Assembly (NCBI RefSeq): GCF_018417595.1
Contig: NZ_CP070982.1
Span: 5,755,001-5,819,000 of the forward strand
Source of the DNA: Pseudomonas entomophila
GTDB taxonomy: Bacteria; Pseudomonadota; Gammaproteobacteria; Pseudomonadales; Pseudomonadaceae
Reading direction: 5' to 3'
Length of the DNA stretch: 64,000 bases
This document shows positions 23,348 to 39,109 of this stretch, piece by piece. Both the position numbers and the translations under genes were made by a program. Within the stretch, counting starts at the first letter, position 1. Every line of letters starts with the position of its first letter. The notes below the pieces were generated by a model. That model was given only the letters and a program-made list of their open reading frames with translations, did no database searches and was not told the origin of the DNA.

Positions 23348-23404
23348 AATTTCTCCATAAAAATCAGCGGATTGGACTCTGAGAATATCGAGCCGCGACA
23401 TCAA

Positions 23405-23851: not shown

Positions 23852-25570
23852 TCAAAGCAGCGGGCAGCGAAATCGCCCATTCGGGGTCAGTATTGTCGCC
23901 TTTTTCATTGCACGAGTGACCGCGACACGCATGGCTAAACGGGCCTGACGCACGCGATCGGGGGTTGCCCCTGCCTGTAAAAATCGCCCCCTCATCAGCC
24001 CCTCGTACAATATGACCTCTGTGAACTCTTTCCCTTTCGACTTGTGCATGGTCATCAGATGGAGGCCCTTCCAGTCCTTGGTCACCGCTTGGAAGTGATC
24101 CTGAACAAGGGCATCCCGGACCAGCCCCTCTGCTCCTGGGTAACCTCCAGCTGAGCGCCATAGTTCGCTCAACCGGCTTCGAAGGAGGGATCCCTTCCCA
24201 AGCAAGCGGACATACCGAGCATCGATACCGATCTGATTGAGAACCTGCTCAGTGCTTGAGTCCAGCAGCTGTCGCATGGCGATCCAATCGACCTGAGGGT
24301 CGCCAGTCAGTTGCAGATAAAGGCGCTGGACCGCGATAGTCTGTACGGCAGCGAGAATCCGCTTGTGCGGTAGCCTGCGAAGCGTCTGACCTCCGAACAA
24401 TTGCTCAAAAGCGAGCACCAATTCCAGATGTGGCTTACTGGGGGCCTTCTCGCCTTTCCTGCCACGCAGGTGAGCACATAAATTTCTTAGGAGCCTTTCA
24501 GTAATGATCTCTGCAGTCGCGCCACCTTCGAGAAGCGCAGCGATCGCCGTAGCAGAGAGCGCAGCAGCTTCTTGGTCAAACGCCACTTCATGGGAAAGTC
24601 TAGGCAAACTATCTGAGTCACTCGACAAGTACGCGGAAACCTCAGCCATGAAGCTCTTGCTGGGCACCAAAATAGCAAGCGACCAATCACGTCCATCTCT
24701 ATTCAACCGTCCTATAGCGGTCAGAACCGCAAACTTGAAAGCCCGATGAAGCATCCCTTTACGCGGGACGTAGGGCGTCACCGCCACATCAGTGTAGGCT
24801 CGATGCTTGTTGGCACCTGTCAGCAGGTCGTTGCCGAACTGAACGATGTCGGTCCCCGTGCTCCGGTGATTTTCCATTCCAAAAGAAAAGGAGGCGGGAC
24901 GGTAAGCTTCTTCAAACTCTTGAATCCTGTTAGCACTGGCACCGCGAAATTCGTAGATCCGTTGTTCCGGGTCAGCCAAAGCCAGCACCTGGCTATGTCG
25001 AGTCAGCGCGCGGATGAAACGCCACTCGTCCTCGTTCGTGTCCTGGAACTCGTCGAGTATGACAAGTGGATAGCTGTTGCCGTAGATGCGCTGCAGCGAC
25101 TGGCTTCTCTCCAGCAACATGGCAGCATTGCTGGCGAACAGGTCGAAGTGCAACAGTCCCTCCTCCTCGAGCAGCCTGATTTTCTCCAAGGCTATCTGTT
25201 CTGCACTTAATGTGGACAATCGCGCTGCAGCCTCTGGCGGAGGAAGCAGTGATAAGGGCCGCCCGTTGCGGAGTAAGTAGCCATGGCTGCGCAGTAAATT
25301 CCACGTGAAGCCATGGTAGGTGTTGACCTCAAGCCGAGCCTGCTCGAGTTTCGGCAGCATCTTTCCGGCCTGTTCCGCAACCCTTGCGACCGTTGCTCTG
25401 GCGAAGCTCAGGAATAGCACCTGTTGGTACTCTGTGAGGTCTAGTCGGCCTAGAAATGCTTCAGCTTTAAGCAATGCGACTGTGGTTTTCCCTGAGCCAG
25501 GCCCCCCCATCACGACCAGATGGCTGGGAGAGTCGATAACATCCCGTCGAGACTGATCAAGCACTATCAT
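23852..25570 (-). CDS. gajB: Gabija protein GajB, UvrD/Rep-like helicase
   Basis: A 572-residue superfamily 1A helicase. It has an N-terminal Gln/Walker A region (MIVLDQSRRDVID, GGPGSGKTT at 22-30), Ia FLSFARAT, Walker B LDEFQDTN (172-179), DPEQRIYEFRGA, and C-terminal MTMHKSKGKEFTEVILYEG and AMRVAVTRAM. GajB senses DNA termini and works with the GajA nuclease against phage DNA. It starts four bases after the gajA stop, the standard Gabija order. It is slightly longer than the founding GajB (about 494). No frameshift is seen, so the pair looks intact. Confidence 0.82.
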   Translation of the reverse strand: MIVLDQSRRDVIDSPSHLVVMGGPGSGKTTVALLKAEAFLGRLDLTEYQQVLFLSFARATVARVAEQAGKMLPKLEQARLEVNTYHGFTWNLLRSHGYLLRNGRPLSLLPPPEAAARLSTLSAEQIALEKIRLLEEEGLLHFDLFASNAAMLLERSQSLQRIYGNSYPLVILDEFQDTNEDEWRFIRALTRHSQVLALADPEQRIYEFRGASANRIQEFEEAYRPASFSFGMENHRSTGTDIVQFGNDLLTGANKHRAYTDVAVTPYVPRKGMLHRAFKFAVLTAIGRLNRDGRDWSLAILVPSKSFMAEVSAYLSSDSDSLPRLSHEVAFDQEAAALSATAIAALLEGGATAEIITERLLRNLCAHLRGRKGEKAPSKPHLELVLAFEQLFGGQTLRRLPHKRILAAVQTIAVQRLYLQLTGDPQVDWIAMRQLLDSSTEQVLNQIGIDARYVRLLGKGSLLRSRLSELWRSAGGYPGAEGLVRDALVQDHFQAVTKDWKGLHLMTMHKSKGKEFTEVILYEGLMRGRFLQAGATPDRVRQARLAMRVAVTRAMKKATILTPNGRFRCPLL

Positions 25571-25573
25571 CTG

Positions 25574-27385
25574 TTAAGGCCCGACCAAATCGAGAAGGTC
25601 ATCATCCAGTTCTGGACGTTCAGGCTCGGGCTTCTTGGGAACAATTGTGGCTGTAATGCTCTCAAGGGTGCTGACAATGAATTCTGGGAGGTGATGTCGG
25701 GTCATAGCGGTACAAAGTAAGCTGGCAGCAGCTCCATCGCCTTTCCAGCGCTTTAGCAGCCCCCCTAGAATCGCTGCTACCTCATCTTTCGTGGCATCAG
25801 GGCCCGGGGCCTTGTCCTTTAAGTCTGAAGGCCAAGCACCGCTGTCGATCAAAGACGCAACCCAGCCACGCAACATTTCCTCATCGGCTCCTTTGAGAAC
25901 GACGTTCTCGAAACCTTTCTCAGGTGCTTGATAGGGGTAGTCGACCGACGCCCTAATAGCCTCCAATTGCTCGGGTGCCTGCTCGTCGAAAACGGCATAG
26001 ACCTTCTTCCCGAGCTTGCGGTAGTAGGCCCCCATCGGAGCGATCAGCGAGTCAGTCGTCGCATCGATGATTGGGATGCCCAACGCCTCAAGCGGCATGA
26101 AAGACTCCGGCTCCTGCTGATGAAGCAGTCGCGCTACGGCGGGCCAAGCATCGTATTCCGTCCGGCCTTCGGCAATCAGCACCCGACGTGCCAGAAGGGC
26201 CTCACAAACACGCAGCCGCATGTCCTGCCGGTACATTTTTGCTTTGATGCCCGGCGGCAGCCCTGCAGGCATGGCACTCAGTTTCCCATCGTTTCGGCTG
26301 ATAACGATGACCTGCTCGGGTTCGAATTCTTCGAGTACGTAGGGCGAATGCGAGGTAAAAAGCGCCTGGGCTGACTTGCTGCGCACACCGTTGATGATGC
26401 GTTTTTGAATATGCGGCGGGATTGCTATCTCTGGCTCCTCCATCGCAAAAATCACGTTCTGCTTCAGCTCCGCGATCAGTGACAGAAGTGCCAGTACCAT
26501 CATGTTGATAGTACCGGTGCCTTGGCTCTGGAATGGTGCTGCATGCGCTTCGCCATCACTACGCTGCGCACCGGTTACCATGAAGACAGTTAACGCTTTT
26601 CGCAGAGACTCACGTGTCAGTTGCGTGACTCGCATTTGTGGATCGCTGCCGTCATCGCTGGGCATGTAGCCGCGGATTGAGGCCTGCACATTCGCCAAGA
26701 TGTCGTTGATCCCGATCTCCGGATCAGTTGCAACCTGCAACTGTCGAAGCTCAACCAAGAGCCCTTCCCAGATTTTGAAGTTCTTGTCGTCCTGTAACCG
26801 CAAAATGATGTCCAGGAGCGAGCCACGCTCAAGGCTCAACGCACGACTGCCGGTTCGGATCGTGCGCAGATACAGAAACCCACAGACACGCTTATCGGCA
26901 GTCCTGAAGAAATCGTAAGACCCATCCTGTTTCATCGGCGAGCAGAAGTAAGTGGTACCAGTGAAATCATCCTCATCAGCGTCGTATCTGCCGACAAAAA
27001 CGACGCGCAAACAGGCCTGAACCATCTGGTCATCAGTATTCTCTACTGGCGGCCCCCCGAGCAGATCTCCCGTACCGTTATCCCACCATTCGATGTGATC
27101 CCGAAAACGCATTTCCTGATCCAGGTTCAGGTCAGTGATCACTGCTTCGATGGTGATGTGGACTGGCTGCCCCTGCGGATCGACATACTCCCCCGCATAA
27201 AAATCGTGCTCATCTATCACAGGCCTACGGGATAGCCGCTCAGGGCCCAGCACCAGATCAATCGCCTCCAGCAGTGTCGACTTACCGATGTTGTTGTCAC
27301 CAACGATAACGGCATGCTTAGGAAACAAAACGTCCGCGCGCCTGATACCTCGGAAATTCTCAATCTGAAGTCGTGCAACCCGCAT
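25574..27385 (-). CDS. gajA: Gabija protein GajA, OLD-family ATPase/TOPRIM nuclease
   Basis: A 603-residue protein starting MRVARLQIENFRGIRRADV, the conserved OLD/RecF start. Walker A is GDNNIGKST (29-37) and Walker B is FAMEEPEI (313-320), followed by TSHSPYVLE. The TOPRIM domain shows LIAEGRTEYDAW (403-413) and VYAVFDEQ (462-469). GajA nicks or cleaves DNA and is restrained by nucleotides in the founding system. I chose 27385, where homology begins; an in-frame ATG at 27445 would add 20 residues. It pairs with gajB directly downstream. Confidence 0.82.
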   Translation of the reverse strand: MRVARLQIENFRGIRRADVLFPKHAVIVGDNNIGKSTLLEAIDLVLGPERLSRRPVIDEHDFYAGEYVDPQGQPVHITIEAVITDLNLDQEMRFRDHIEWWDNGTGDLLGGPPVENTDDQMVQACLRVVFVGRYDADEDDFTGTTYFCSPMKQDGSYDFFRTADKRVCGFLYLRTIRTGSRALSLERGSLLDIILRLQDDKNFKIWEGLLVELRQLQVATDPEIGINDILANVQASIRGYMPSDDGSDPQMRVTQLTRESLRKALTVFMVTGAQRSDGEAHAAPFQSQGTGTINMMVLALLSLIAELKQNVIFAMEEPEIAIPPHIQKRIINGVRSKSAQALFTSHSPYVLEEFEPEQVIVISRNDGKLSAMPAGLPPGIKAKMYRQDMRLRVCEALLARRVLIAEGRTEYDAWPAVARLLHQQEPESFMPLEALGIPIIDATTDSLIAPMGAYYRKLGKKVYAVFDEQAPEQLEAIRASVDYPYQAPEKGFENVVLKGADEEMLRGWVASLIDSGAWPSDLKDKAPGPDATKDEVAAILGGLLKRWKGDGAAASLLCTAMTRHHLPEFIVSTLESITATIVPKKPEPERPELDDDLLDLVGP

Positions 27386-27745
27386 ATCTGTCTGCTCCCA
27401 CTCCCGTGTAAGCCTCGCACGTCGAGGCCAATAGCCATCAGACACTAGTCGATAAACGGTCCAAATGCCTCACAGGATCTGGTCCCTCCCTAGCTCAATG
27501 CTCTAGTTGCCCAGAGCGATGACGGTACGCGTAGGGCCTGCTACATCGGTCATCTTAGACCTCCCGATGCTGCTTGCCAGGCGGAGTTCAGACGCGCGGA
27601 TCTAGGCAGATCCAGCCATCAATGGCTGTGCCGACCGCGCGATGCAACATGGACTAGGATCAGATTCAGTAGCGTGATCGCCATGATTGACTCGGTTACG
27701 CGACTCAGTGAGCAAAAGACTTGCGATTCAAGAAAAGCACGAGTA

Positions 27746-27761
27746 CTGTACATGCATACAG
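27746..27761. promoter_or_regulatory. LexA (SOS) box
   Basis: CTGTACATGCATACAG matches the gammaproteobacterial LexA consensus CTGTATATATATACAG at 13 of 16 positions and keeps CTGT...ACAG. It is symmetric over the outer bases (TACTGTA...TACAGTA). It lies over 300 bp from either flanking gene, so its target is unclear. Confidence 0.6.
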
Positions 27762-27948
27762 TAGAAAAATATTGAACTTCAGCTTTCGATAGAGCGTCAC
27801 TAGGACTGAATGCTCAAGCCCGAACCATCCGCTCTTTAACAACTGGCCTCATCCAGAGTCTGCGGCAGCCCAGCTGATACCTGCTGCGGCAACCGTAGTC
27901 CAAAGTCGGCGACATCAGGCCGAAGGTCGAGAAAATCGACTGATGGCG

Positions 27949-27977
27949 TTTCGACCTCACCAGTCTACCTGTATAAT
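27949..27977 (+). promoter_or_regulatory. Candidate promoter of the GHKL-ATPase/STAS unit
   Basis: A perfect -10 hexamer TATAAT (27972-27977) with a weak -35 TTTCGA (27949) at 17-bp spacing. An inverted pair AGGTCGA / TCGACCT surrounds the -35 region and could be an operator. Confidence 0.4.
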
Positions 27978-27995
27978 TCTGCCCCCCACCCGACC

Positions 27996-29168
27996 ATGAG
28001 CCGGGGGCAGGAAGGTCCAAATGGCATTGGATCCTTCAATAAAGTTGACCAACTCCGAGCTAAGCGAACACCCATGCGGAAAAGGATTATCCAGATCTTG
28101 AGTGGTACCCCAGAGCTAAAGGCTCGGGAAATCGCAAAGCTGTTGAATGTCGAGCGAAGGGAAGTTACGAAATTTCTCTACGACAACCTTGGAGAGTTCA
28201 TAAAAGATGAGAACTCTACTTGGTCACTGAAGAAAGACGCGCGCCTCCAAATCGAATTTTCTGCGGCCAGCACTTGGATCACGCAAGAGCATTTCGAGCG
28301 GTCACTGGCCAAACATGGATCACCTCTTGACTGTGGCCACGGTCACATAATTTTGAAGATCCCAAAGGAACGCAAGGTGCTTTTTTGTGCTGCAGCCAGG
28401 ATCCTTGCACTCGCCAACCAGCTCGCAAAAGTTAAATCACTAGTTGAGCTCGACTTCAGCGAAAACTCTGATGCAATGTCCTACCTTAGAAGAGCTTTTT
28501 TCTTCGAGCGCCTCGACAAAAGTGTCAAAGTTCTTCCCCGTCGCCCCGCTAGCGTCAATGCAGAAGGATTGAAAGCTAACAACAAGCGATTGGTTGAGCT
28601 TCTACCAATCGAGGTTAGCGGCGAAGAGAACGTCCCCGAGCGCTTCAAGTTCAGTTTTATAGAAGCTTTTGGCGAACTTCACGCTAATAAGCTACATACA
28701 GTGCTTGGTGAGCTAATTGGTAATGCGGAAGAGCATTCTGAGACGATAATCCCCGGATTTGCTGGGCTTCAGAGCTACAACTGGAAAGGATCGCCGCGTA
28801 TCGTCGCGGTGGTTTCTGACTCTGGAAAAGGCATCTGCTCGACACTAAGACCGGCCTTGGACGAGCACTACCCAGAGGTTGCAGCTCAGTTCCCAGAAAC
28901 ACTTGAAGCCTCAAATGCCAAGCTTATCATCCATGCAATGCGCAACGGCGGATTGAGCAAACGTGGTAAAGGTGGTGGGGGTAGTGGTTTAAATAAAAGT
29001 TCAGGTTATGCTGAAAGCCTTAATGCAAAGGTCAGCATTAGACAGGAAGACTTTTCCGTTGAGCTAACCTATGAAAAACCAGACTTGTATAAACATAGCT
29101 GGCGCTTAGGATTACCTAGGCTTTTAGGTACTCACATAGTATTTGAATTCAACTTGACAGATAAATAG
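27996..29168 (+). CDS. Winged-helix plus GHKL ATPase (histidine-kinase-like ATP-binding) protein
   Basis: A protein of up to 390 residues. A winged-helix-like segment lies near residues 27-75 (RKRIIQILSG, REIAKLLNVERREVTKFLY). The C-terminal GHKL ATPase has an N box LIGNAEEHSE, a G1 box VSDSGKGI and a Gly-rich lid RGKGGGGSGLNKS. There is no His phosphoacceptor and no membrane part, so it resembles anti-sigma-factor or partner-switch kinases, not a sensor kinase. The ATG at 28074 is an alternative start; neither has a strong ribosome site. The next gene, a STAS-like protein, begins 20 bases later. Base composition is AT-rich for this genome. Confidence 0.7.
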   Translation: MSRGQEGPNGIGSFNKVDQLRAKRTPMRKRIIQILSGTPELKAREIAKLLNVERREVTKFLYDNLGEFIKDENSTWSLKKDARLQIEFSAASTWITQEHFERSLAKHGSPLDCGHGHIILKIPKERKVLFCAAARILALANQLAKVKSLVELDFSENSDAMSYLRRAFFFERLDKSVKVLPRRPASVNAEGLKANNKRLVELLPIEVSGEENVPERFKFSFIEAFGELHANKLHTVLGELIGNAEEHSETIIPGFAGLQSYNWKGSPRIVAVVSDSGKGICSTLRPALDEHYPEVAAQFPETLEASNAKLIIHAMRNGGLSKRGKGGGGSGLNKSSGYAESLNAKVSIRQEDFSVELTYEKPDLYKHSWRLGLPRLLGTHIVFEFNLTDK

Positions 29169-29188
29169 ATTCTGGTTAAACTCAAACC

Positions 29189-29752
29189 ATGAACGAGAAA
29201 ACTTACATAATCGCCCTTCGCGACTTCACGGACGGAAGCAGCAACCCTTACGGCACATTTAGGGGTAGGAAGGCTCATGCTCAATTGTTGGACTCTATTG
29301 CCAAGTTAGTTGGCGCCAAAACAATTGGCATATCCCTCAAGAATATTGATGGAGCCGATGTTTCTTTTCTTCGTGAGTCACTTATATTCACCTTTAAACA
29401 GTACGCTAAGAAAATCTCCTTTTATATCTGCGACTTAGCTGATGAAGACATCATCGCAAACCTTGAGGGTGCCGCAATATCTGGCGATTTCCGAGTTACA
29501 TGCTGGGTGAACGGTCAATGTAGATTCGTAGGCCCCGAACCTTCACCATCAAGCCTACCTCTTCTCAATGTGGTCATGTCCAATCACTCGGTTACCACGA
29601 CGCAGGTTGCCCAAGCGCTTGAGATGAGCGTTCAGAACGCCAGCACCCGCCTGAAGCGACTGTCCGAGGAAGGGTTCATCACCCGCGTGGAAATGTCCGC
29701 CGGCAGCGGAGGTAAGGAATTCGTGTACAAGGTGATCGGCAATTCTGCTTAA
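29189..29752 (+). CDS. STAS-like (DUF4325-type) protein with C-terminal winged helix
   Basis: A 187-residue protein. Residues 15-100 look like the STAS-like DUF4325 fold (GTFRGRKAHAQLLDSIAKLVGAKTIGISLKNIDGADVSFLRESL). Residues 125-185 form a MarR/ArsR-like winged helix (TTTQVAQALEMSVQNASTRLKRLSEEGFITRVE...GGKEFVYKV). It would be the natural partner of the upstream GHKL ATPase, as anti-anti-sigma factors are of RsbW-type kinases. That the unit regulates neighbouring cargo is inference. It ends at a strong terminator. Confidence 0.7.
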   Translation: MNEKTYIIALRDFTDGSSNPYGTFRGRKAHAQLLDSIAKLVGAKTIGISLKNIDGADVSFLRESLIFTFKQYAKKISFYICDLADEDIIANLEGAAISGDFRVTCWVNGQCRFVGPEPSPSSLPLLNVVMSNHSVTTTQVAQALEMSVQNASTRLKRLSEEGFITRVEMSAGSGGKEFVYKVIGNSA

Positions 29753-29770
29753 AGGGGTTGCTTTATCGAG

Positions 29771-29808
29771 AAATGGGGGTATGCTTTTGGCATGCCTCCA
29801 TTTTTTTT
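29771..29808 (+). terminator. Strong intrinsic terminator after the ATPase/STAS pair
   Basis: Stem AATGGGGGTATGC / GCATGCCTCCATT around a TTTTG loop, with one G-T pair, followed by eight T's. It separates this transcript from the YegP-like and ubiquitin-like genes. Confidence 0.88.
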
Positions 29809-29862
29809 GGCCGGCGTTAAACAGGGTCGCTGAACGAGATCAGGGGAGTAAGGAGCTCATCG

Positions 29863-30192
29863 ATGAAAGCGAGGTTCGAAGTTCGCAGGCCGAACGGAGG
29901 AGACTGGTACTTCCAGTTCGTGCTAGCTGATAACCAGGTGATGCTACGTAGCGAAGCCCACAAGAGCCTCGCCAATTGCATCAACGGGATCGAATCGTGC
30001 AGGGAGCACTCGCCGTATGATCGTTTTTACAGCAGATTGGACGATGAATCGGGTTTCTCGTTCCGCCTAAGGGCTTCTAACAACAAGGCCATCAGCCACG
30101 GACCAAGATGCGCTTCGGCTGAGGAAAGAGAAAAAGTCATAAACACAGTGAAGCGGTACGCATCCGCTGCTCAGATCACAGACGTGAAGTAG
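29863..30192 (+). CDS. DUF1508 (YegP-like) protein
   Basis: A 109-residue protein of two DUF1508-type repeats: RPNGGDWYFQFVLADNQVMLRSEAHKSLANCINGIESCREHS, and a weaker second copy SGFSFRLRASNNKAISHGPRCASAEEREKVINTVKRYA. YegP proteins are small, widespread and of unknown function. Good ribosome site AAGGAG eight bases before the ATG. It lies between the ATPase/STAS terminator and the ubiquitin-like operon, so it may be independent. Confidence 0.75.
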   Translation: MKARFEVRRPNGGDWYFQFVLADNQVMLRSEAHKSLANCINGIESCREHSPYDRFYSRLDDESGFSFRLRASNNKAISHGPRCASAEEREKVINTVKRYASAAQITDVK

Positions 30193-30432
30193 GAGGTAGG
30201 AAGAAACAGAGTGCCCTAAAAGAAGGACGATACAACGTAGGTGAGAAACCTAGCGCAACGCCACATTGCGCGAAGTCTGAGTCGAGATGCCTCAAAAACG
30301 AAGCATGAGTATCTCCGCGTGTTCCGCACCAGTCAAGAACTGATTGGGACTCTCCTCCTCTACGGCTAAATCTGGCTTCCATCCAGGAAGCTAACTAGCC
30401 GCCTGTGTGCGGAAAATAAAGAGGTTTTACCC

Positions 30433-31524
30433 ATGCAAAATGATCAATCGTGTCACCCAACCCCTTTCACCGTTGAGGTGGCAGGCCATGATCTGGAGTT
30501 CCGCCAGGTCCGTCTCGATGACCGCAAGGTTAACGGTGCTCAGATCGCCGCTGCAGCTCGCTTCAAGCCTGACCAGATGCCGATCGTGCTGCAGTTGCTC
30601 GACTCGGGGGCTCAGGAAGATATCCGCCCTGAGGAACTGGTCACGCTGCAGGACGGCGTAAACCGCTTCATCGTCATCGAGTCCGACCGCAAATACATCC
30701 TGACTGTCGATGGAGCTCGCCTGGAGTGGCCATGCGCAAAAATCTCCGGACATACCGTCCGCAAGCTCGCCGAGGTCGACCCGGCTAAACGCCTGCTGTT
30801 GGAGCGGGAGGAAGAGGCCGACCTGGAAGTCGAAGACAACCAGCTCATTGACTTGGATGAGGCTGGTATCGAACGCTTCATCACCCGCAAGGCGATCTGG
30901 AAGCTGAACATCCAGGGCGAGAACTACGACTTCTCCAAACCAGTCATCACGGTACGTGAGGCCATCTCGGCCGCAAGCCTGGACCCGAACCATAACTGGC
31001 AAATTTTCTTGATCGTTCGTGATCAGCCCAAGCGCGCTCTGACCATCGACGACGAGATCGACCTGCGCCCGGCAGGCATCGAGAAGCTGCGCCTGACGCA
31101 AAAAGACGTGAGCAACGGCGAGGCCGCTCAGCCGATTCGCCGCGAGTTCAAGCTGCTTGACCGCGACGAGCAACACCTGAACGCCGTAGGCCACCACTGG
31201 GAAACCCGGTTGTCCACCGACGGTGGTCGTTGGTTGCTGATCCACGAATACCAGCTGCCACCCGGCTTCTCCGAAGAAGCCGTTCAACTGGCACTGAGCA
31301 TCCCCTCGACCTACCCCAGCACGGCCATGGACATGTTCTACCTGTATCCAGCGGTCCATATGGCTGACGGCACTCTGATACCGCAAACAGAAGCGACGGT
31401 AAACGTTGACGGGGTTCCCTTCCAGCGTTGGTCTCGCCACCGTGCGTGGAACCCAGCAACCGACAACGTCATGACCCAGTTGGCGATGGCCGACGGCTGC
31501 CTCCACAAGGAGGTCGACAAGTGA
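30433..31524 (+). CDS. Triple ubiquitin-like / E2-like fusion protein (multi-ubiquitin plus E2 family E)
   Basis: A 363-residue protein. Three consecutive Ubl-like (multi-ubiquitin) units occupy about residues 11-84, 85-152 and 154-223, each with beta-grasp pattern such as FTVEVAGHDLEF and WKLNIQGENYDF. A prokaryotic E2-like domain follows at about 238-355 (WLLIHEYQLPPGFSEEAVQLALSIPSTYP, then FQRWSRHRAWNPATDN). The only cysteines are 7, 101 and 356, so no Cys occupies the usual E2 active-site region. No free C-terminal Gly-Gly follows any Ubl. It overlaps the E1/JAB gene (GTGA). It likely supplies both modifier and transfer domain of a ubiquitination-like pathway. Confidence 0.78.
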   Translation: MQNDQSCHPTPFTVEVAGHDLEFRQVRLDDRKVNGAQIAAAARFKPDQMPIVLQLLDSGAQEDIRPEELVTLQDGVNRFIVIESDRKYILTVDGARLEWPCAKISGHTVRKLAEVDPAKRLLLEREEEADLEVEDNQLIDLDEAGIERFITRKAIWKLNIQGENYDFSKPVITVREAISAASLDPNHNWQIFLIVRDQPKRALTIDDEIDLRPAGIEKLRLTQKDVSNGEAAQPIRREFKLLDRDEQHLNAVGHHWETRLSTDGGRWLLIHEYQLPPGFSEEAVQLALSIPSTYPSTAMDMFYLYPAVHMADGTLIPQTEATVNVDGVPFQRWSRHRAWNPATDNVMTQLAMADGCLHKEVDK

Positions 31525-32897
31525 ACAACGGATCTCGCCTCGTAGTGACGGCCGAGATCTATACCGCACTCCGGGAACACCTGTTCCCGGGGGACGGTAA
31601 AGAGGCCGCCGCTATCCTCATCTGTACCCGCACCCCAGGGGCCGCACTCAAGCTCCTGTCGAAGGAGCTGATTCTGGTGCCCTACGAGGAGTGCGCGCTC
31701 AGACAACCCCACGCGATCACCTGGCCAGGCGATTACCTCGAGCAAGCGATTGATCAAGCGCTCCCTCAACAGCGTTCGATCATCCTTGTTCATTCTCACC
31801 CAGGAGGATTGTTCCAGTTCTCCCAGGTTGATGATGACAGTGACTCGGGAACGATGGTGTCGCTGTACCAAGGGGTCGAAGCAATCCACGGCTCAGCGAT
31901 TATGACGCCTAATGGGGCCATGCGGGCGCGGCTCTACCACAACGGCGGGGCTCCCGAAAACATCGAAATAGTGACTGTCCCGGGTGATGACATTTGTTAC
32001 TGGTTCCCTAACGGCTCTGATCAGCAACCACCATTGGCTTTCACCTCTGGTATGACCTCCAGGCTCAGTCACCTTACCGCAGCAGTCGTTGGCGTGTCGG
32101 GCACGGGCTCAATTGTGGCAGAACAGCTTGCCCGACTTGGCTTCGGCCGGCTGATTCTGATCGACCACGACCAGGTCGAATCCAAGAACCTCAACCGCAT
32201 CCTCAACTCCACGCTTGAAGACGCCGAGAACTGCCGGCCCAAGGTTGACGTTTTCGCAGATGCGGTCGAACGGATCCGCGGTCCCAACATCGTCAAAGCC
32301 ATCAACGATACGGTGATGAGCAGGGAAGCTGTACTGGCTGTGGCCGATGCCGACGTACTCTTCTGCTGCGTTGACTCGCATCAGGGAAGGCTGATCTGCG
32401 ACCTTATGGCCTCGAGCTTCCTGCTCCCTCTGTTCGATGTCGGCGTAACTATCCCGACTCGCTTGTCCAACAAGGGCATACGGAGAATCCATGATGTGCT
32501 GGGGCGGATTGACTACGTTCAGCCAGGCGGCTCAACGCTCTGCGCCAGAGAGGTCTACACCGCTCAATCGCTGAGTGCCGAGGAGCTGAAGAACACGGAC
32601 CCCAAGGCCCACAGTGAGCAGGTAAAGCAGGGGTACATCTCGGGCATCCCGGAAGAGGCGCCGTCCGTTATTACCTTAAACATGCGGGCAGCTAGCGCAT
32701 GCGTGAACGAGTTCGTCGCTCGAGCCTTCCCCTTCCGTGAGGACCCCAACCACAAGTATGCACGCATACGGTTTTCGCTCTCCGGGGGCTACGAGGAGTA
32801 CGAAGCCGAACGCGACCTCCCACGGTCCGAGTCTCCTACTCTTGCGCAAGGTGACGCTGAGCCTCTGCTGGGCCTTCCCGCCCTGGGAGCGGCTTGA
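31521..32897 (+). CDS. JAB protease / ThiF-E1 fusion protein
   Basis: A 458-residue protein starting at a GTG with AAGGAGG eight bases upstream. The N-terminal JAB/JAMM metalloprotease has Glu28 and HSHPGGLFQFSQVD (His91, His93, Ser101, Asp104), all zinc-site residues present. The C-terminal E1/ThiF adenylation domain has GVSGTG (191-196), LILIDHDQVESKNLNR (211-226) and Asp285 in CCVDSHQGR. A possible crossover region QPGGSTLC ends at Cys341. It should activate the Ubl and remove or process it. It overlaps both neighbours, forming a tight operon. Confidence 0.8.
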   Translation: MNNGSRLVVTAEIYTALREHLFPGDGKEAAAILICTRTPGAALKLLSKELILVPYEECALRQPHAITWPGDYLEQAIDQALPQQRSIILVHSHPGGLFQFSQVDDDSDSGTMVSLYQGVEAIHGSAIMTPNGAMRARLYHNGGAPENIEIVTVPGDDICYWFPNGSDQQPPLAFTSGMTSRLSHLTAAVVGVSGTGSIVAEQLARLGFGRLILIDHDQVESKNLNRILNSTLEDAENCRPKVDVFADAVERIRGPNIVKAINDTVMSREAVLAVADADVLFCCVDSHQGRLICDLMASSFLLPLFDVGVTIPTRLSNKGIRRIHDVLGRIDYVQPGGSTLCAREVYTAQSLSAEELKNTDPKAHSEQVKQGYISGIPEEAPSVITLNMRAASACVNEFVARAFPFREDPNHKYARIRFSLSGGYEEYEAERDLPRSESPTLAQGDAEPLLGLPALGAA

Positions 32898-33241
32898 TGA
32901 GCTTGTTCAAGACCTTCGCACGCAAAGTCGTTCTGAAGTTTGATCACTTGCTTCCCCCTCGGCGACTCATAGTCGTCAAGGGGGACTCCCTACCCCCTGA
33001 AATGCCAATCCGCGCGATTGTTTTAGCTAGGGATGGCAGCGAGGACTGGTGTGTCGGGATGCAGTGCCCCTGTGGGTGCGGCCGAACGATCGAGCTTCTG
33101 GTTATCGATGAGGCCAAGCCGCGGTGGGACTACAAGGTCGACGCTGATGGCCTCCCTTCGCTTCACCCCTCTGTCTGGCTGAACAACGGCTGCTGCTCAC
33201 ATTTCTGGCTCAAGAAAGGCCGTATCCATTGGTGCCGTTAA
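32897..33241 (+). CDS. DUF6527 (BubE-type) protein
   Basis: A 114-residue protein with the DUF6527 pattern: QCPCGCGRTIELLV near residues 55-68, then HPSVWLNNGCCSHFWLKKGRIHWC at the end. The start ATG overlaps the preceding stop (TGATG). This family is a regular companion of bacterial Ubl-E2-E1-JAB operons. I recall recent work proposing a protease-type role under the name BubE, but could not verify it. The conserved Cys cluster may bind metal; Ser in CCSHFW is a candidate functional residue. Confidence 0.75.
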   Translation: MSLFKTFARKVVLKFDHLLPPRRLIVVKGDSLPPEMPIRAIVLARDGSEDWCVGMQCPCGCGRTIELLVIDEAKPRWDYKVDADGLPSLHPSVWLNNGCCSHFWLKKGRIHWCR

Positions 33242-33290
33242 GCAGCTATACCCGAACGACTGAACCCAATCACAACGAGAGGAAAACCTG

Positions 33291-33848
33291 ATGCGCATGA
33301 ATGGATTGGAACGACTGGCGCACAGCATGCGAGCGCTGGATGTCGATATGCAGAAATTTCTCTTCACAAATGGAGCAGCCAGCTTTGACTGCTTGTTCTC
33401 CATGCGGGGGGACTACGAGCTCTCGCTGACCTCACGGGGAGTCAACCCCAGGTTCTTCCTGTTCCCGATCTCCGATGATTTTCATCTGTCGAGCTATCTG
33501 AGTAAGCACACCCTCAATGAGCTACTGGGCGTCCTCAAAACCCATGGGCTATCAACCCAAGGCTTCAGTACCTCACGTTTCTTTCAGGCTCTGGACCTCG
33601 CTGTGCCGCACCAGGCCCAACAAGCCCGCGTACCTACCGCACAAGCGATCTTGGACCTTCGCCACGATCTTGAAGAAAGAGATCGCCCATTTTTCGACGC
33701 ATGGATCTACTGGACGGAAAGAGGCCCCCGAATCGAAAACCTGGAGAAGACAATGAAGCTATTGGGGCCACAAGCACGTGAATTCAGCATCAAGAACCGG
33801 GCGTCCTCCAGGTGGAGCGCAATTGATCTGGGCAGGGCCTGGAGATAA
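33291..33848 (+). CDS. DUF6037-like protein in the ubiquitin-like operon
   Basis: A 185-residue protein. It starts with LERLAHSMRALDVDMQKFLFTNGAASFDCLFSMRGDYELSL and later has LNELLGVLKTHGLSTQGFSTSRFFQALDLAVP, resembling the uncharacterised DUF6037 family from memory, not searched. It has an AGAGGAAAACCTG ribosome site and begins 49 bases after the DUF6527 gene. It is probably the last gene of the Ubl operon; its role (substrate, regulator or toxin) is unknown. Confidence 0.5.
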   Translation: MRMNGLERLAHSMRALDVDMQKFLFTNGAASFDCLFSMRGDYELSLTSRGVNPRFFLFPISDDFHLSSYLSKHTLNELLGVLKTHGLSTQGFSTSRFFQALDLAVPHQAQQARVPTAQAILDLRHDLEERDRPFFDAWIYWTERGPRIENLEKTMKLLGPQAREFSIKNRASSRWSAIDLGRAWR

Positions 33849-33963
33849 TTTAGAACGCTCAAAAATCAAGAGTGAGAGCTCGATAAAACAAGCGAGCTCC
33901 CAGCATCACTCGCGTCAGCCACACCCAGCCAGCGCTGGCTTACGTTGCAGGGAGCAACACGCA

Positions 33964-35715
33964 TTGAAGGCCCCCATCACACGAACCGAATTCAAATACA
34001 AACGCCCTGATATTCGGCACCCGCACAGCTCAGTGGCTAATTTCAAGGGAGAGAATATCGTTTGGTGGTATAGCTTCATACGCAATAATCGCCAGGGTGA
34101 AAGGTCAATCCCGGAAGTCGAGGTGATATTTAAAACGCTCTATGGCGATGTCCCTGGCTCAATTACCAGTGCAATCATTCCTCTTGCCGCGCTGCCTCAT
34201 TACCAACTAGGAAGTGTCTGGAGCGACGGAGAGTGCGTATCCGACACAGGCATGGCCCAAGAAGAGTTCAATGTAAATTTTTCACCTAAAGGTTACGGCA
34301 TCACATCTCGAAATGAGCTTAGGAAAACAGGGCAAGGCCATATATTTCATGATGCCGAATATGAGCTTCCGCTGCGCTGCTGGTCCAGCAAGCTAATCAA
34401 CTTTAGATTACCTGACAACAAAAACCTTCTAGTCCCATGCACAGAATACTTCGTGCGAGCATACGCACACAACATGATAATATGCAGATCCATATGCACC
34501 CTACTATTCGACGAGGTACTTTCAGCCTTGTTCGAATGCAAAACCCCCGATGCCTATCGGTGGCTTATTAAGCCCAAGAGAAACATCCCAGATTCTGAAG
34601 CCGTATTCTTGGCGCATTTGCTATACGACAATTTCACACATAATGAAGTCCGCCGACTGAACAGTAATTTCACTTCTTCGGCTCCGGGTGGAAAAGTATT
34701 TCCAGAGGTAAGGCCCTGGTTCGAGGGCAGAGGTAAACTTCTCTGTCGTGGACGATGGATTAATGAAGGGAATACGTTTTTGTGCCTAGATCTGTGTAAA
34801 TCATCCAATCCTGCAGGCCCAAGGATTGAGCTTTTCCGGGATGAATTTGACAACACTAACGGAGAAGCTGGCGGCCGCACTATTATACCTCAACCCACTA
34901 GGCTCCCAAAGGACGGCGAACCTGTAAACGAAGAGTCCCATGTACCCCCAGACGCCCAAGCCGAAAAAATCGTAGTGAATCTACGGCCCTTTGGAACCCT
35001 AGGCCCAGAACGGAATGTAAAAATATTAAAATATATCAATCAAACGAAGAGGGGTTGGCGTGGGCCTGGTCCTTCCAAGGCTGATACCTTTTCCAGCGGT
35101 GATGGTACCGGCACTGGCAAAAATGTCGGGAAGTCAGAGCACGTGTCCGATGTGGCATTAGAGTCTCATGGTTTCTTATTAGATATCTGGAACGCTTTTC
35201 TCTCAATCAAGCGGGACAACCCTAAGCAGTTCAAAGATCTGAGCTGGCACGCTTCTAATGGATTTGGAGTTTCTTCCCCACCTATTATTAATCTGTTCGA
35301 CCCTAATGGTCTTTCAAAGGGCGCACGCAACTGGATTCACCTTTACCGAAGCATCAATTGGGATGACAAACGGTGCCGCGGCCTCATGGTACTGCGCTTG
35401 ATTATCGACAACCAAACTTTTTATTGCTTTGAGATAGAGCGCCAGGAAGCTAGTGATCAGGTTCATGACCCTAGGGGTTATTCCGGAGTTTTGTTTAGAG
35501 CGCACACCATTGACCCCGAAGCATTTAAGAACTTCGTAAAATCTGTAATGACCAAGATCATAAAGAACAAGGGGGTATTTAAAGGCATGATGGATCAATT
35601 CCCAGAGGATGCCCTGCTTATCACACATCACATTAAAGACCCATATGTGCGCTATCGCACCGCGCTGCTTAAGACTCTCGCTCAGGCAGGCATTGATTTC
35701 ACAGAAACTGTTTGA
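33964..35715 (+). CDS. TnsE-like protein (tentative)
   Basis: A protein of about 583 residues, AT-rich relative to core genes. I chose a TTG start at 33964 (GGGAG nine bases upstream); the open frame extends back to 33778 over the previous gene. The N-terminal part has WWYSFIRN and IIPLAALPHYQLGSVWSD. The middle has NLLVPCTEYFVRAYAHNMIICRSIC, similar in layout to TnsE's RSLFLINSYFCRS stretch. The C-terminal part has RGLMVLRLIIDNQTFYCFEIER and FKNFVKSVMTKI, comparable with the TnsE C-terminal domain. TnsE directs Tn7 to replicating conjugal DNA. It is convergent with and overlaps tniE by 17 bp, unlike Tn7. Confidence 0.45.
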   Translation: MKAPITRTEFKYKRPDIRHPHSSVANFKGENIVWWYSFIRNNRQGERSIPEVEVIFKTLYGDVPGSITSAIIPLAALPHYQLGSVWSDGECVSDTGMAQEEFNVNFSPKGYGITSRNELRKTGQGHIFHDAEYELPLRCWSSKLINFRLPDNKNLLVPCTEYFVRAYAHNMIICRSICTLLFDEVLSALFECKTPDAYRWLIKPKRNIPDSEAVFLAHLLYDNFTHNEVRRLNSNFTSSAPGGKVFPEVRPWFEGRGKLLCRGRWINEGNTFLCLDLCKSSNPAGPRIELFRDEFDNTNGEAGGRTIIPQPTRLPKDGEPVNEESHVPPDAQAEKIVVNLRPFGTLGPERNVKILKYINQTKRGWRGPGPSKADTFSSGDGTGTGKNVGKSEHVSDVALESHGFLLDIWNAFLSIKRDNPKQFKDLSWHASNGFGVSSPPIINLFDPNGLSKGARNWIHLYRSINWDDKRCRGLMVLRLIIDNQTFYCFEIERQEASDQVHDPRGYSGVLFRAHTIDPEAFKNFVKSVMTKIIKNKGVFKGMMDQFPEDALLITHHIKDPYVRYRTALLKTLAQAGIDFTETV

Positions 35716-37153
35716 TATCTCGCTCACTACGATAGGTGTTCGCTGAGGGAATCCATAGAGTTTCCCCTTCATGCTCAACCGCGAAACCGGCCATACCGTT
35801 GAAGCTCTCCTTCTGGTACACGAGCTTCTTCCTATTGGCCCGATAGATCTCGTGAAAATAAGCCATTCCCTTGACGATCCAGACTGTCTCAGTCAGGTCT
35901 TGATCATCGCTCTTCAGGAGATCCACCAATTCGCGCTCGGCCTTATGTTTCCTGGCTTGCTCAAGCCATCGTTTCTCAGGACGGGCCTTTATGGAGGTGT
36001 TACGCGTCTTATTGAGGTAGCCCACGAATCCCGAGACCGCCGCTACCTGTCCTGGCGAACTCCGCCAGAAAGCTTCGATTGTTTTCTGCGTCGGTAGCGC
36101 TTGAGGTGCCAACGCTGCAAGCTTGAGAAAATTGAGTGCCGCGTGCATAGCTAGCCGCATCGAGCGCAAATCTGTCTCCTTGCTCTCAACCCGCACAGCT
36201 AGATAGTCGTGATACCCATGCAACAACTGGTTGGACCAAAAGTCGGGCAAAACCGACAACATCTCCAACAGCCGACGCCGCTCCGTGTTCGCTTCACGCG
36301 CTTCATCGCTTACCGTTACAGCACCAATCCCCTGAAGCCAACGCATAGGGTTCTCGGCCTTACGTAGCCCTGCTGCGCCGATATGCTTCAACAGCATGTC
36401 GTATGTTGGAACGTCACCCCAAAGAGCATCCATCTGCGCAAAAAATCGGTAGTGCTGATTGATGCTCAATGCGGCTTTGTGTGGGCCACTTCGGTTCAGA
36501 AGCCACTGCGAAAATGCTTCGAAATGCTGCTGAATGCGCGGACTGCTGAAGCCTGCCGAGTTCTGCGTAGAGCGCTTAGCGAACACGGCCGTCCAAGTAC
36601 AGCTTTCACAGCACTGCCCGCGACCGGCCGGCATCTCGCCTCCACAGGTTCCACATTTGCGCTCACCTTCAGTGATACAAATCTTGCATCGTGATATGCC
36701 GTCAGCATCCGTGATCAGCACTCGGTGGCGCCGGCAACTCGCGCATGTGGCTTTCGCCGGCTCTCGACACTTGTTGCAGCTGCGGCGCCCTGTCTTGGTA
36801 CTTACGGCCAAACGCTGCGAAAGCTTTCCACAGGTCTCACAGACCTCAGGTTCGCGAAAGTATGGAACACAGGATTTGCAGACGGGCCCGTAATCCGACC
36901 ACATACCGATGGCAAATTCGATCTTGGCGCATCGCACACATGGCTTCGCCCGGTTACAGGTACTGCAGCACACCGCCTGGTCAAAAACAGGAAGACGAGC
37001 CGAGTTACCACAGCCTGGGCATAGCCGGGGTTTGAAAAGGCGTGCGTAGCAGGTCTCGCAATAGCGGCAGTGGTTGTGCACCTTCTTGGCTTTCACCATG
37101 GCACGACCGCATTCATGGCAACCCAAGTCACCGCCCAAATCAGTGGAGACCAT
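35699..37153 (-). CDS. tniE: TniE-like zinc-ribbon-array transposition protein
   Basis: A 484-residue protein. The first 190 residues carry about a dozen CxxC knuckles (CHECG, CRYCETC, CPGCG, CSTC, CVRC, CKSC, CETCG, CNKC, CASC, CKIC, CGTCG, CESC), a dense zinc-ribbon array. The remainder is helical and reminiscent of a recombinase-type core-binding fold, without visible catalytic residues. It overlaps the tniQ gene by 14 bp and is last in the tns block, the position of tniE in comM-targeting elements. A role in DNA target recognition is inferred. Confidence 0.6.
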   Translation of the reverse strand: MVSTDLGGDLGCHECGRAMVKAKKVHNHCRYCETCYARLFKPRLCPGCGNSARLPVFDQAVCCSTCNRAKPCVRCAKIEFAIGMWSDYGPVCKSCVPYFREPEVCETCGKLSQRLAVSTKTGRRSCNKCREPAKATCASCRRHRVLITDADGISRCKICITEGERKCGTCGGEMPAGRGQCCESCTWTAVFAKRSTQNSAGFSSPRIQQHFEAFSQWLLNRSGPHKAALSINQHYRFFAQMDALWGDVPTYDMLLKHIGAAGLRKAENPMRWLQGIGAVTVSDEAREANTERRRLLEMLSVLPDFWSNQLLHGYHDYLAVRVESKETDLRSMRLAMHAALNFLKLAALAPQALPTQKTIEAFWRSSPGQVAAVSGFVGYLNKTRNTSIKARPEKRWLEQARKHKAERELVDLLKSDDQDLTETVWIVKGMAYFHEIYRANRKKLVYQKESFNGMAGFAVEHEGETLWIPSANTYRSERDIKQFL

Positions 37154-38261
37154 CTCTGCGAATCCTTCTCTGCAGTCGCAACCACATCCTCAAGACGCCC
37201 AGAGGACGGCGGATGTGATTCTGCTCTTTCTTGTGCCTTGGGCACCGTGAGCTACAGCTTAAAGCCGAAGCCATCTGATTCAAAACTTGCGGGGCTTCTC
37301 GAGCGGGCAAAGGGAGGGCTGAACAGGGAAGAACAGCGCGCAGCGCACACTCGACGAAGCGTTCTGGTCCGGCTTGCATTATCACCCACGTCTGCCCCAT
37401 TAGAGCTGAGCGCTCGGCCGGGCTCAGATACTCGAGAGGTAGCCCCAAGGAGGATGGCTGGCATGCAGCCGCGTCGACCTGCATCAGTTCACAGAAGAGT
37501 CGAGTCGAGGACGTGGGATGTCGCGCCACACCTAAAAGCAGGCCGATGATCACACGAGCTACGAACATCCAGTCTGCGAAGCTCAACCTATCCCCGCCGA
37601 ACATTGTACTTTGCCCATAAAGCCCATCTGCAAACGCCTGGAACGCCAACGCATCTTTCGAGCAAGGAAATGAAGCTGCGGAATTCAGGCGCGCCTCACA
37701 ATGGTGACATTTGAAGATGCTACCGCTCTGATCCAGCAAACCAGGTTGCAGCGCCGAGGAGCAATGAGGACAGCGGTCAACCAGCAGTACGCGATGAAGC
37801 GGACAGCAGGTATGCCATGCGAATCGATCATGAACTGAATAGTGAGGCGTCGACCCCGCCATGCATTCCGGACAGCACTGAAGACCACCAGCATGAACTT
37901 GGTGCCGGCAGCCCAGAACCATGATCCATGGCCACAAGCTACTGGTACGCAGAAAAGGTTGAGGATGGAGGGACCGGGACACCGGAAGCAGGGTGCTGGC
38001 GATCAATCTCTCGACACTGATGCCTGTCAAATGAGCCAAATTCGCGAGGCGTGTTTCGTCGCAAGTTCGGTCTATGTCAATGGACCAGATTCGAGACCCT
38101 GGCCAAGCGTGATTAGTGAGCGTTCCAGGCGTGCAGCCATGCAACAACGCTGTTCTCACTAACCACGAGGAGAACAGCTCGTCAGGCAACAACTGCGGGG
38201 TCAGCGGCCATCTGGGATTTAGACAATGAGCTCCCGGATGCCACGTGTAGGACGCTTCCAC
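37140..38261 (-). CDS. tniD: TniQ-family target-selection protein (TnsD/TniD-like)
   Basis: A 373-residue TniQ protein. The start LLPDELFSSWLVRTALLHGCTP is the TniQ opening pattern. The zinc-binding core is CCPECMAGSTPHYSVHDRFAWHTCCPLHRVLLVDRCPHC plus CHHC (residues about 120-190). TniQ/TnsD proteins read the attachment site and recruit TnsC. The GTG start overlaps the tnsC end by 43 bp. It is shorter than Tn7 TnsD (508), as in other single-site elements. It is the likely comM recogniser, possibly with TniE. Confidence 0.82.
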   Translation of the reverse strand: MEASYTWHPGAHCLNPRWPLTPQLLPDELFSSWLVRTALLHGCTPGTLTNHAWPGSRIWSIDIDRTCDETRLANLAHLTGISVERLIASTLLPVSRSLHPQPFLRTSSLWPWIMVLGCRHQVHAGGLQCCPECMAGSTPHYSVHDRFAWHTCCPLHRVLLVDRCPHCSSALQPGLLDQSGSIFKCHHCEARLNSAASFPCSKDALAFQAFADGLYGQSTMFGGDRLSFADWMFVARVIIGLLLGVARHPTSSTRLFCELMQVDAAACQPSSLGLPLEYLSPAERSALMGQTWVIMQAGPERFVECALRAVLPCSALPLPAREAPQVLNQMASALSCSSRCPRHKKEQNHIRRPLGVLRMWLRLQRRIRRDGLH

Positions 38262-39109
38262 GACTTACTCTCGATGAGCTGTCGGTCGATGCATTCCTTA
38301 CCGGACGTGATTGCTTCCTTTGCACACTCTACCAAAAGGCCATGTAGGTCGCCGGTGTTACCACCAGAGATGGAGTGAAGGAGTTGAGCCAGTTGAGGCT
38401 CAAACAGCTTGGACGGTTTCTTCAACGGAAGCACCAGTTCGAAAGCCTTCAGTAACCGCTGAAAATCGGCGTCCAGTTTCCAGGTCTCAAGCTTGACGGT
38501 GTCGAAACGGCTCGCGTGTTGAGGGTCGATGTGGAGAATCTGAACAGCGTCTGGAGTACCGACGCCGACGATTGGGATCATCAGCGTGTTACACAAGAGC
38601 TTCAGAGCGTTCATAACCTCCCTCTGCTTAATGGCCGACCCTGTGAGCATCGAGTGAATCTCGTCGATGATCAGCATCCTGACCTTCAACTCGCGCAGTG
38701 CGTGAATCACCTGGTACCTGAGTTTGATCTTGGGATCAGTACTCCGATAGGGCATCCACATCTGCTCCAAAATCGCCACGTACAACTCTTTCTCGTCGGC
38801 CAACGGGGGCGACTCGGCCAAAATAATGGGTCTTACAGGCTCACTTTCTTCGTTGACGTAGCCCTGTCCGTGAGTTTTTACGAACTGGTGGATCAGAGTT
38901 GTCTTCCCATTGTTGGAGTCCCCTACCAGCAACAGATTTGGCATTCGGGGGCGCTTGGGAGCATCGAGCAGTGAACCCAGGGTATCCAGAATCTTCACTG
39001 CCGACTTGTAGGCGATCCACCGCGGCTCGCCCATGAAGAGGATCCGCTCGCGATCTGATAAATGCAAAACCGGCCGAAAGTCTGTATGTAGGTGGGCATA
39101 GTCCGTCAT
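38219..39109 (-). CDS. tnsC: TnsC/TniB-type AAA+ transposition regulator
   Basis: A 296-residue AAA+ ATPase with Walker A GDSNNGKTT (63-71), Walker B MLIIDEIHS (145-153) and sensor-like GVGTPDAVQIL. It links target recognition (TniQ) to the TnsA/TnsB transposase. The stop-start overlap with tnsB is ATGA-like (39106-39109). It is shorter than Tn7 TnsC (555) and close to TniB. Confidence 0.88.
   Translation of the reverse strand: MTDYAHLHTDFRPVLHLSDRERILFMGEPRWIAYKSAVKILDTLGSLLDAPKRPRMPNLLLVGDSNNGKTTLIHQFVKTHGQGYVNEESEPVRPIILAESPPLADEKELYVAILEQMWMPYRSTDPKIKLRYQVIHALRELKVRMLIIDEIHSMLTGSAIKQREVMNALKLLCNTLMIPIVGVGTPDAVQILHIDPQHASRFDTVKLETWKLDADFQRLLKAFELVLPLKKPSKLFEPQLAQLLHSISGGNTGDLHGLLVECAKEAITSGKECIDRQLIESKSWKRPTRGIRELIV

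Follow-up and report, generated by a model that had tools for sequence, protein, structure and literature searches.

A mobile Bub operon with a probable CapK-CapS DNA-damage switch in a Tn6022-like comM transposon of Pseudomonas entomophila

Results

The window, a 64,000-nucleotide stretch of the Pseudomonas entomophila genome, contains a Tn7-like element that carries a ubiquitin-like conjugation operon and the Gabija genes gajA and gajB (Table 1). The preliminary description had recognized four tightly packed genes in the operon, and the reading frames and joints are indeed as it claimed: bubAB and bubCD overlap by GTGA, bubCD and the DUF6527 gene by TGATG, and 49 nt separate the DUF6527 gene from the DUF6037 gene. 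The locus begins further upstream, with capK, capS and yegP. This module and the leader behind it were absent from the earlier reading.

Table 1. Features of the element and the Bub locus (window positions)
Feature	Position	Strand	Basis or remark
Target-site duplication GTGGC, left copy	19991..19995		
Tn6022-like (Tn7-like) element, inserted in comM	19996..41829		21,834 bp; ends 5'-TGTCGG...CCGACA-3'
gajB (Gabija)	23852..25570	-	PADLOC, E 0
gajA (Gabija)	25574..27445	-	PADLOC, 2.2e-253
capK, HTH...GHKL kinase (predicted)	28074..29168	+	start set by conservation; ORF opens at 27996
capS, STAS-wHTH repressor (predicted)	29189..29752	+	PDB 9z71 (E. roggenkampii CapS), E 4.7e-33
CapS-like box 1, TTAA-N10-TTAT	29749..29766	+	sequence match
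Terminator-like hairpin and T run	29773..29808	+	read by eye
CapS-like box 2, TTAA-N10-TGAA	29817..29834	+	sequence match
yegP-like gene (DUF1508)	29863..30192	+	Pfam, 3.1e-19
Non-coding leader, candidate structured RNA, helices P0-P4	30268..30421	+	conservation and covariance model
bubAB, three Ubl domains fused to E2-like domain	30433..31524	+	Ubl C-terminal Gly229 (31117-31119) at joint
bubCD, JAB protease fused to E1	31521..32897	+	Pfam and solved-chain matches
DUF6527 zinc-finger-like protein	32897..33241	+	Pfam, 2.6e-22; ATG 32897, stop 33241
DUF6037	33291..33848	+	Pfam, 2.1e-8; 34.8 bits, cut-off 28.8
tnsE-like gene, not cargo	33964..35715	+	named homologues and Tn6022-like place
Probable tnsF	35699..37153	-	position and Cys-rich N-terminus
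tniQ	37140..38261	-	Pfam, 2.5e-17
tnsC/tniB	38219..39109	-	Pfam, 4e-71
tnsB	39106..41049	-	Pfam, Mu-transpos_C
tnsA	41031..41723	-	Pfam, 5.9e-17
Target-site duplication GTGGC, right copy	41830..41834		

The domain content first proposed was borne out by profile searches, which found Multi_ubiq, Prok-E2_E, ThiF, Prok-JAB, DUF6527 and DUF6037. Both folds expected in 30433-31524 were recovered, with Multi_ubiq matching BubAB in three stretches (E = 3.1e-36) and Prok-E2_E at 2.6e-29. BubCD matches ThiF (4.4e-23) and Prok-JAB (2.4e-9), the JAB part lying N-terminal to the E1 part. The multi-Ubl part of BubAB matches the solved chain PDB 9D59, a multi-ubiquitin protein, at E = 1.6e-82. Solved Citrobacter Bub chains (entries named as such are 9EA4, 9EA5, 9EA8, 9EAE and 9EAV) match the operon proteins at E values of 1.6e-82, 8e-45 and 8.5e-180, over nearly the full length of the proteins, and the final residue of the solved BubA chains is the glycine equivalent to Gly229. 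At the Ubl/E2 joint N-G-E is invariant in all eight aligned BubAB proteins, the E2 part of which has no invariant cysteine; the JAB motif HSHPGG...SxxD is likewise invariant in eight of eight BubCD proteins. The motif C57-x3-C61-x37-C99-x2-H102 of the DUF6527 protein, which we take to be BubE, is the same in all 32 aligned rows.

Judged by sequence comparison, the core of 30433-33848 is a Bub operon of the kind already known (Gong 2025; Ye 2026), with an identical order of triple Ubl, E2-like domain, JAB-E1 fusion and DUF6527. A Citrobacter freundii plasmid locus, which also has a fused BubAB and capK-capS upstream, shares 60% identity in BubCD, 57% in BubAB and 62.5% in DUF6527. The same core corresponds to row 6e of Iyer 2006, whose accessible text lists a polyUbl protein, a JAB fused to an E1 and a metal-binding protein, some of the polyUbl proteins being fused to an inactive E2-/RWD-like domain. 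Tandem Ubls, an E2-/RWD-like domain lacking the catalytic cysteine and the JAB-E1 fusion are all found here; the metal-binding signature of row 6e (C-x3-C-x(35-38)-H-x2-C) differs from that of our DUF6527 in that the C/H order is swapped. Hence, the suggestion that the gene set is little described does not hold for its core, already covered by row 6e and by the Bub family with its solved Citrobacter proteins. The Bil system (BilABCD) has the Ubl, E1, E2 and JAB set in common with our locus, but its E2 is described as carrying a catalytic cysteine. Because the E2-like domain here has no conserved cysteine (eight BubAB proteins), membership in Bil is ruled out. The window locus goes beyond these Bub operons in having yegP, a conserved leader and DUF6037 and in its position on a comM transposon; in the accessible text on row 6e a regulator, yegP, an RNA and DUF6037 are not described.

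The DUF6037 gene terminates the operon in three loci (the window, P. morbosilactucae and P. grimontii), and no clear structural relative of its protein was found. Several of its homologues, at 56-84% identity, come from metagenome contigs only. It might be a hitch-hiking passenger at the operon end, unrelated to Bub function, a reading to which we give slightly less than an even chance. As expected of a passenger, 21 of 23 DUF6037 loci on genome contigs lack Bub in the fetched flank (contig ends shorten some flanks), six of the seven plasmid copies opened lack it too, and the Bub loci of Citrobacter and Bradyrhizobium have no DUF6037. A passenger would not, however, be expected to occupy the identical place in three loci, one of which (L029, P. 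grimontii) has no transposon genes in its fetched flank, nor would its three Bub-linked copies be expected to form one clade with support 100/100.

Upstream of the operon, capK-capS-yegP is, by its similarity to characterized controllers, a probable DNA-damage switch. CapK-CapS is described as such a switch, with CapK an HTH-STAS-GHKL kinase encoded directly upstream of capS (EMBO J 2026). According to the accessible text of that study, among 443 capK loci capK and capS lie upstream of 231 Bub operons, and yegP comes next in 57. The arrangement here agrees with capK-capS placed directly upstream and yegP following it; yegP and Bub in one locus and a leader RNA are not described in that text. 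The capK gene directly precedes capS, and its product is 34% identical to that of the gene preceding capS in the Citrobacter plasmid locus (L020), 82% to that of locus L028 and 62% to that of L029. Its HATPase_c (GHKL) match falls below the Pfam cut-off, STAS was not detected, and no solved relative was found by sequence. In CapS the STAS-wHTH architecture and the conserved serine, which precedes a phenylalanine, are present.

CapS sites are described as palindromes of TTAA half-sites, with N1 spacing before capS and N10 after it (EMBO J 2026, accessible text). These palindromes occur exactly in the Citrobacter plasmid, whereas the Pseudomonas boxes differ by one base; our locus has one-mismatch N10 versions and no narrow (N1) one, and one-mismatch words are not rare. 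The CapS-like boxes nevertheless occupy conserved places among capKS loci: paired TTAAA[CG] boxes lie 67-75 bp apart, 3' of capS, in seven of eight of them. On the + strand of the whole window such words occur nine times, both boxes counted.

Between yegP and bubAB lies a leader in which the last helix reaches to 30414, leaving 18 nt before the bubAB start codon. Its core is 94% identical to that of P. morbosilactucae, exceeding every gene of the locus. That it is a structured RNA is moderately supported. A covariance model built from the leaders of the window and P. morbosilactucae scores the P. grimontii leader at 47.2 bits, compared with 23.0 for sequence alone, the folding z values are -2.62 (window) and -2.48 (P. 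grimontii), and two pairs of P0 have changes on both sides even when the alignment is made from sequence only. The support comes from three loci and is weaker with an unfitted alignment. It is quite possible, if somewhat improbable in our view, that the gap is instead conserved promoter or operator DNA with incidental hairpins. The P. grimontii leader by itself folds differently (mean pair probability 0.10-0.31 for P0-P3), the three pairs that change on both sides in the sequence-only alignment are equaled by 15 of 500 shuffles, and the RNAalifold covariation term is +0.46. Moreover, identity to P. grimontii is lower in the gap than anywhere else in the locus (47.1% for the whole gap, 53.2% for the core and 51.4-70.4% for the genes). 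The model scores, folding z values and P0 changes favor the structured RNA over plain DNA. A short ORF in the gap was ruled out, as no frame is open across all three loci.

The covariance model matched the window's own genome and one apparently of P. grimontii among 398 Pseudomonas genomes, and none other; in 95 relatives it gave its own match and one further genome (G1008) at E = 0.06. BLAST against 298 Pseudomonas genomes returned a full-length match only in the window's own, and 85 other genomes had short matches (E <=1), the best of which (G777, E = 2.3e-4 over 28 nt) lies in a 3-kb locus (L090) without any window protein. No plasmid record reached 80% coverage (the 15 matches listed, of 53, cover 14%), and an Rfam search of 29700-30500 gave chance-level matches only (E 2.7 to 4.2). 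The leader's loop word occurs in 22 stretches of viral contigs, the flanks of which show no resemblance to the leader and encode no window protein. About half of these stretches share one coding-like context.

Carriage by a Tn7-like transposon, and Gabija as neighbor, had been proposed from the outset and both stand: the Pfam matches to TnsA, TnsB, TniB and TniQ are joined by inverted termini matching at 19 of 22 bases, and the comM frame is continuous once a single copy of the 5-bp duplication GTGGC is kept; both Gabija genes are identified by PADLOC. In the accessible text of Faure 2023, Tn6022 consists of TnsA, B, C, TniQ, a TnsF-like protein and an opposite-strand TnsE, with comM as target. 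TnsABC, TniQ, the TnsE-like gene with its strand and the comM insertion are alike here; the Pseudomonas element differs in its Bub and Gabija cargo. Two of 58 homologues of the tnsE-like gene carry the name TnsE C-terminal domain-containing, and tnsE of Tn6022 occupies the same place, which rules the gene out as cargo. The Pfam search of the probable tnsF gave no match; the gene overlaps tniQ and lies in the place of TnsF.

Discussion

We are fairly confident that the Bub operon is complete and intact, that a CapK-CapS DNA-damage switch controls it and that a Tn6022-like comM transposon carries it as cargo. Gene identities, domain order, the conserved joint, the box arrangement and the element ends were all established by comparison; every biochemical step set out below, the leader control and any anti-phage role are inferred.

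With CapS dimers bound to boxes on either side of capS, the locus would be silent. Damage or phage replication would yield single-stranded DNA, which could activate CapK; phosphorylation of CapS by CapK would then allow transcription of yegP-bubAB-bubCD-DUF6527-DUF6037. The leader upstream of bubAB would probably form a second layer of control. The JAB part of BubCD may then cleave BubAB after Gly229 and thereby free the triple Ubl of its E2-like domain, and the E1 part may adenylate Gly229. The cysteine-less E2-like domain could help to join the Ubl to its targets, from which JAB, perhaps with DUF6527, could remove it. DUF6037 would be an accessory of this Pseudomonas lineage. A bolder version, which we put forward tentatively and think rather doubtful, is two-layer control in which the CapK-CapS repressor acts together with a structured leader RNA, possibly read by YegP, that gates translation of the modifier-E2 protein, with DUF6037 as a new pathway partner or effector.

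What the operon is for is a separate question. It could tag phage proteins as Bil does, its carriage beside Gabija reflecting selection by phages, and we regard this as nearly as probable as not. Gabija lies on the same element, defense cargo is described as frequent on Tn7-like elements, damage-inducible regulators are common to CBASS, Thoeris and Bil (EMBO J 2026), and a 2025 review, in its accessible part, places Bub among phage-defense systems. The E2-like domain, however, lacks a conserved cysteine, unlike Bil, and in the accessible text of EMBO J 2026 Bub operons are not demonstrated to protect against phage; a defense role is therefore unproven. A general DNA-damage stress response, in which Bub tags host proteins after damage and the phage link is incidental, seems to us on the doubtful side: the regulator senses damage rather than phage as such and the same authors leave this explanation open (EMBO J 2026, accessible text), but carriage beside Gabija and on plasmids fits conditional defense or element upkeep better.

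Two additions to the known Bub core, the non-coding leader and DUF6037, look new, and they offer two testable parts beyond the Bub literature we found. With a naturally mobile Bub copy that has its full control region, the purpose of Bub can be addressed directly, in a host genus, Pseudomonas, that offers good genetics and phage sets.

Gene Content of the Operon

According to ORF and Pfam checks, the four genes that the preliminary description had singled out as a ubiquitin-like conjugation operon are as it described them, and none contains an internal stop. The bubAB product carries three ubiquitin-like (Ubl) domains and an E2-like domain (Pfam). Its residues 3-229 match the solved multi-Ubl chain 9D59 (E 1.6e-82), the last 76 residues of which are identical to chain 9EA8, named Citrobacter BubA, and its residues 227-362 match Citrobacter BubB (E 8e-45). 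Residues 2-456 of the bubCD product match Citrobacter BubCD (E 8.5e-180). Pfam assigns the third gene to DUF6527 (E 2.6e-22) and the fourth to DUF6037 (E 2.1e-8). We take BubE to be the name for the DUF6527 protein.

Across eight BubAB proteins the N-G-E at the joint between the Ubl and E2-like parts is invariant, and we therefore take residue 229 as the C-terminal glycine of the Ubl; no cysteine in the E2-like part is invariant among these eight. The JAB motif is invariant across eight BubCD proteins. In DUF6527, C57, C59, C61, C99 and H102 are invariant in all 32 aligned rows, and their spacing is, judged from the alignment, zinc finger-like.

The gene set had been thought little described. 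For the core this does not hold: row 6e of Iyer 2006 comprises a JAB-E1, a metal-binding protein and a polyUbl that some species carry as a fusion with an inactive E2. The gene set here fits that description, and hence the operon core was already published in 2006.

Features of the locus and its transposon (positions in the window)
Feature	Position	Strand	Basis
capK	28074-29168	same strand as bub	position and 34% identity to the same-place gene of a C. freundii IncHI2 plasmid
capS	29189-29752	same strand as bub	match to E. roggenkampii CapS, PDB 9Z71 (4.7e-33)
CapS-like box 1	29749-29766		
Terminator-like hairpin	29773-29808		by eye
CapS-like box 2	29817-29834		
YegP-family gene	29863-30192	same strand as bub	Pfam
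Leader core	30268-30421		
Bub operon	30433-33848		ORF and Pfam checks
Cargo gene	20554-21255	-	weak VRR-NUC nuclease match, E 1.2e-4, just below the Pfam cut-off
Element ends	19996 and 41829		5'-TGTCGG...CCGACA-3'

The Tn7-like Element

Both flanks of the element carry GTGGC, and the comM frame is restored when a single copy is kept. Pfam finds TnsA, TnsB, TniB and TniQ; a gene overlapping tniQ occupies the place of tnsF in Tn6022, and an opposite-strand gene has 58 homologues, two named TnsE-like and most nameless. In gene arrangement and comM target the element resembles Tn6022, for which Faure 2023 gives such an arrangement in comM. In P. morbosilactucae the transposon genes are shared, although tnsB is split into two pieces, and so are the seven-gene locus and a right flank of comM. 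Gabija is listed as Tn7-like cargo in Benler 2021, the main text of which does not mention ubiquitin, JAB or ThiF.

A Probable CapK-CapS Switch

Directly upstream of bubAB lie three same-strand genes, a probable capK, capS and a yegP-like gene. According to a study in EMBO J (2026), 231 of 443 capK loci have capK and capS ahead of a Bub operon and 57 have them ahead of yegP; once activated by single-stranded DNA, CapK phosphorylates CapS, and repression is lifted. The window has a pair of TTAAA[CG] boxes 3' of capS at a spacing of 68 bp, and such pairs, 67-75 bp apart, occur in seven of the eight capKS loci examined; by the strict word, P. morbosilactucae retains box 1 alone. Whereas the Citrobacter plasmid locus has exact copies of the published palindromes, the window boxes are one base off the N10 palindrome and the narrow palindrome before capS is absent. 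The hairpin between the boxes, kept with some changed letters in P. morbosilactucae and P. grimontii, may mark the end of the capKS transcript.

Seven of 398 Pseudomonas genomes contain a CapS relative. Of the five examined, one carries Bub; the other four show yegP but no Bub within the fetched stretch, and at locus L059 that stretch stops some 570 nt beyond yegP. By eye, four other Pseudomonas capKS-yegP loci (L059-L062) share a small ORF of about 56 codons between capS and yegP (product ATNPP..GDGHR...TPSGHWVKRDTETGQF...), for which the gap of the three Bub loci is too short. On a Marinobacter plasmid, an opposite-strand WYL regulator precedes yegP, downstream of which some 740 nt lack any annotated gene before an exonuclease is reached; the leader model described below finds no match there.

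The Leader Before bubAB

The 240-nt yegP-bubAB gap is 88.5% identical to that of P. morbosilactucae, with scattered one-base indels; its first 51 nt fall within the longer yegP of that locus, beyond the stop of which identity is 92.7%, and the 154-nt core reaches 94.2%. Between the same loci the genes are 67.7-85.8% identical, the capS-yegP gap 84.5% and the gap before DUF6037 44.8%. Against P. grimontii the pattern is opposite (gap 47.1%, core 53.2%, genes 51.4-70.4%). No frame within the gap is open in all three loci. A 28-nt segment elsewhere (G777:C187:210394-210421) is 93% identical to the central region of the leader (E 2.3e-4); its 3-kb locus holds no window proteins.

A covariance model built from the window and P. 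morbosilactucae leaders finds the P. grimontii leader (E 5.6e-9, 47.2 bits; 23.0 bits with a sequence-only model). The 19 sources scanned give no further match up to E 10; they include the Citrobacter Bub locus and four further capKS-yegP loci. Run at E 0.01 with strict filters over 398 Pseudomonas genomes, the covariance model gives two matches, the window's own and G755, apparently the P. grimontii contig again. A three-sequence model run over 44 sources matches the same three leaders alone. Pairing holds in 97.9% of the cells of the model-fitted alignment, with both-sided change at 8 of 32 pairs; in the sequence-only alignment the values are 89.6% and 3 of 32. RNAalifold gives no covariation gain, and the P. 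grimontii leader alone favours other folds. The leader is likely functional, and we put the chance that it acts as RNA somewhat above even. Only 18 nt separate the end of the last predicted helix, at 30414, from the start codon of bubAB, so that translation control would be its simplest role.

DUF6037, Spread and Role

DUF6037 was found at 23 loci in genome contigs, in 7 plasmid records and in 3 viral contigs. Two of the 23, those of P. morbosilactucae and P. grimontii, have the full capK-capS-yegP-bubAB-bubCD-DUF6527-DUF6037 order; the other 21 hold no window protein besides DUF6037, several flanks being cut by contig ends, and one (L050) gave no window-protein match at all in the locus comparison. 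The three Bub-linked copies form one clade (100/100) in a 23-row tree of the window, 19 genome loci and 3 viral copies, from which plasmid rows and the partial or weak L047-L050 were excluded. Six of the seven plasmid records with DUF6037 were examined, and none shows Bub; BubAB matches occur in 170 plasmid records, and the two of these that were examined show no DUF6037. DUF6037 thus seems to accompany one Pseudomonas lineage of Bub as an accessory and not to belong to the Bub core. The structure predicted for it has high confidence (pLDDT 91.1), with no clear relative found. At three Pseudomonas loci (L034, L040, L049) the same pair of large genes, of about 545 and 713-740 aa, is found near DUF6037; by eye, the product of the former seems to resemble a defence-type protein.

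Within the family, 15 of 298 genomes contain a BubAB relative, and in four the match spans most of the query. Many Enterobacteriaceae plasmids give near-identical BubAB scores; on the IncHI2 conjugative plasmid pOZ181 of C. freundii (5176-9797), capK-capS-bubAB-bubCD-DUF6527 adjoins gamma-mobile-trio genes. The EMBO J 2026 authors state that Bub protection against phage is not demonstrated, and a 2025 review places Bub among phage-defence systems. A defence role of the Bub operon is plausible.
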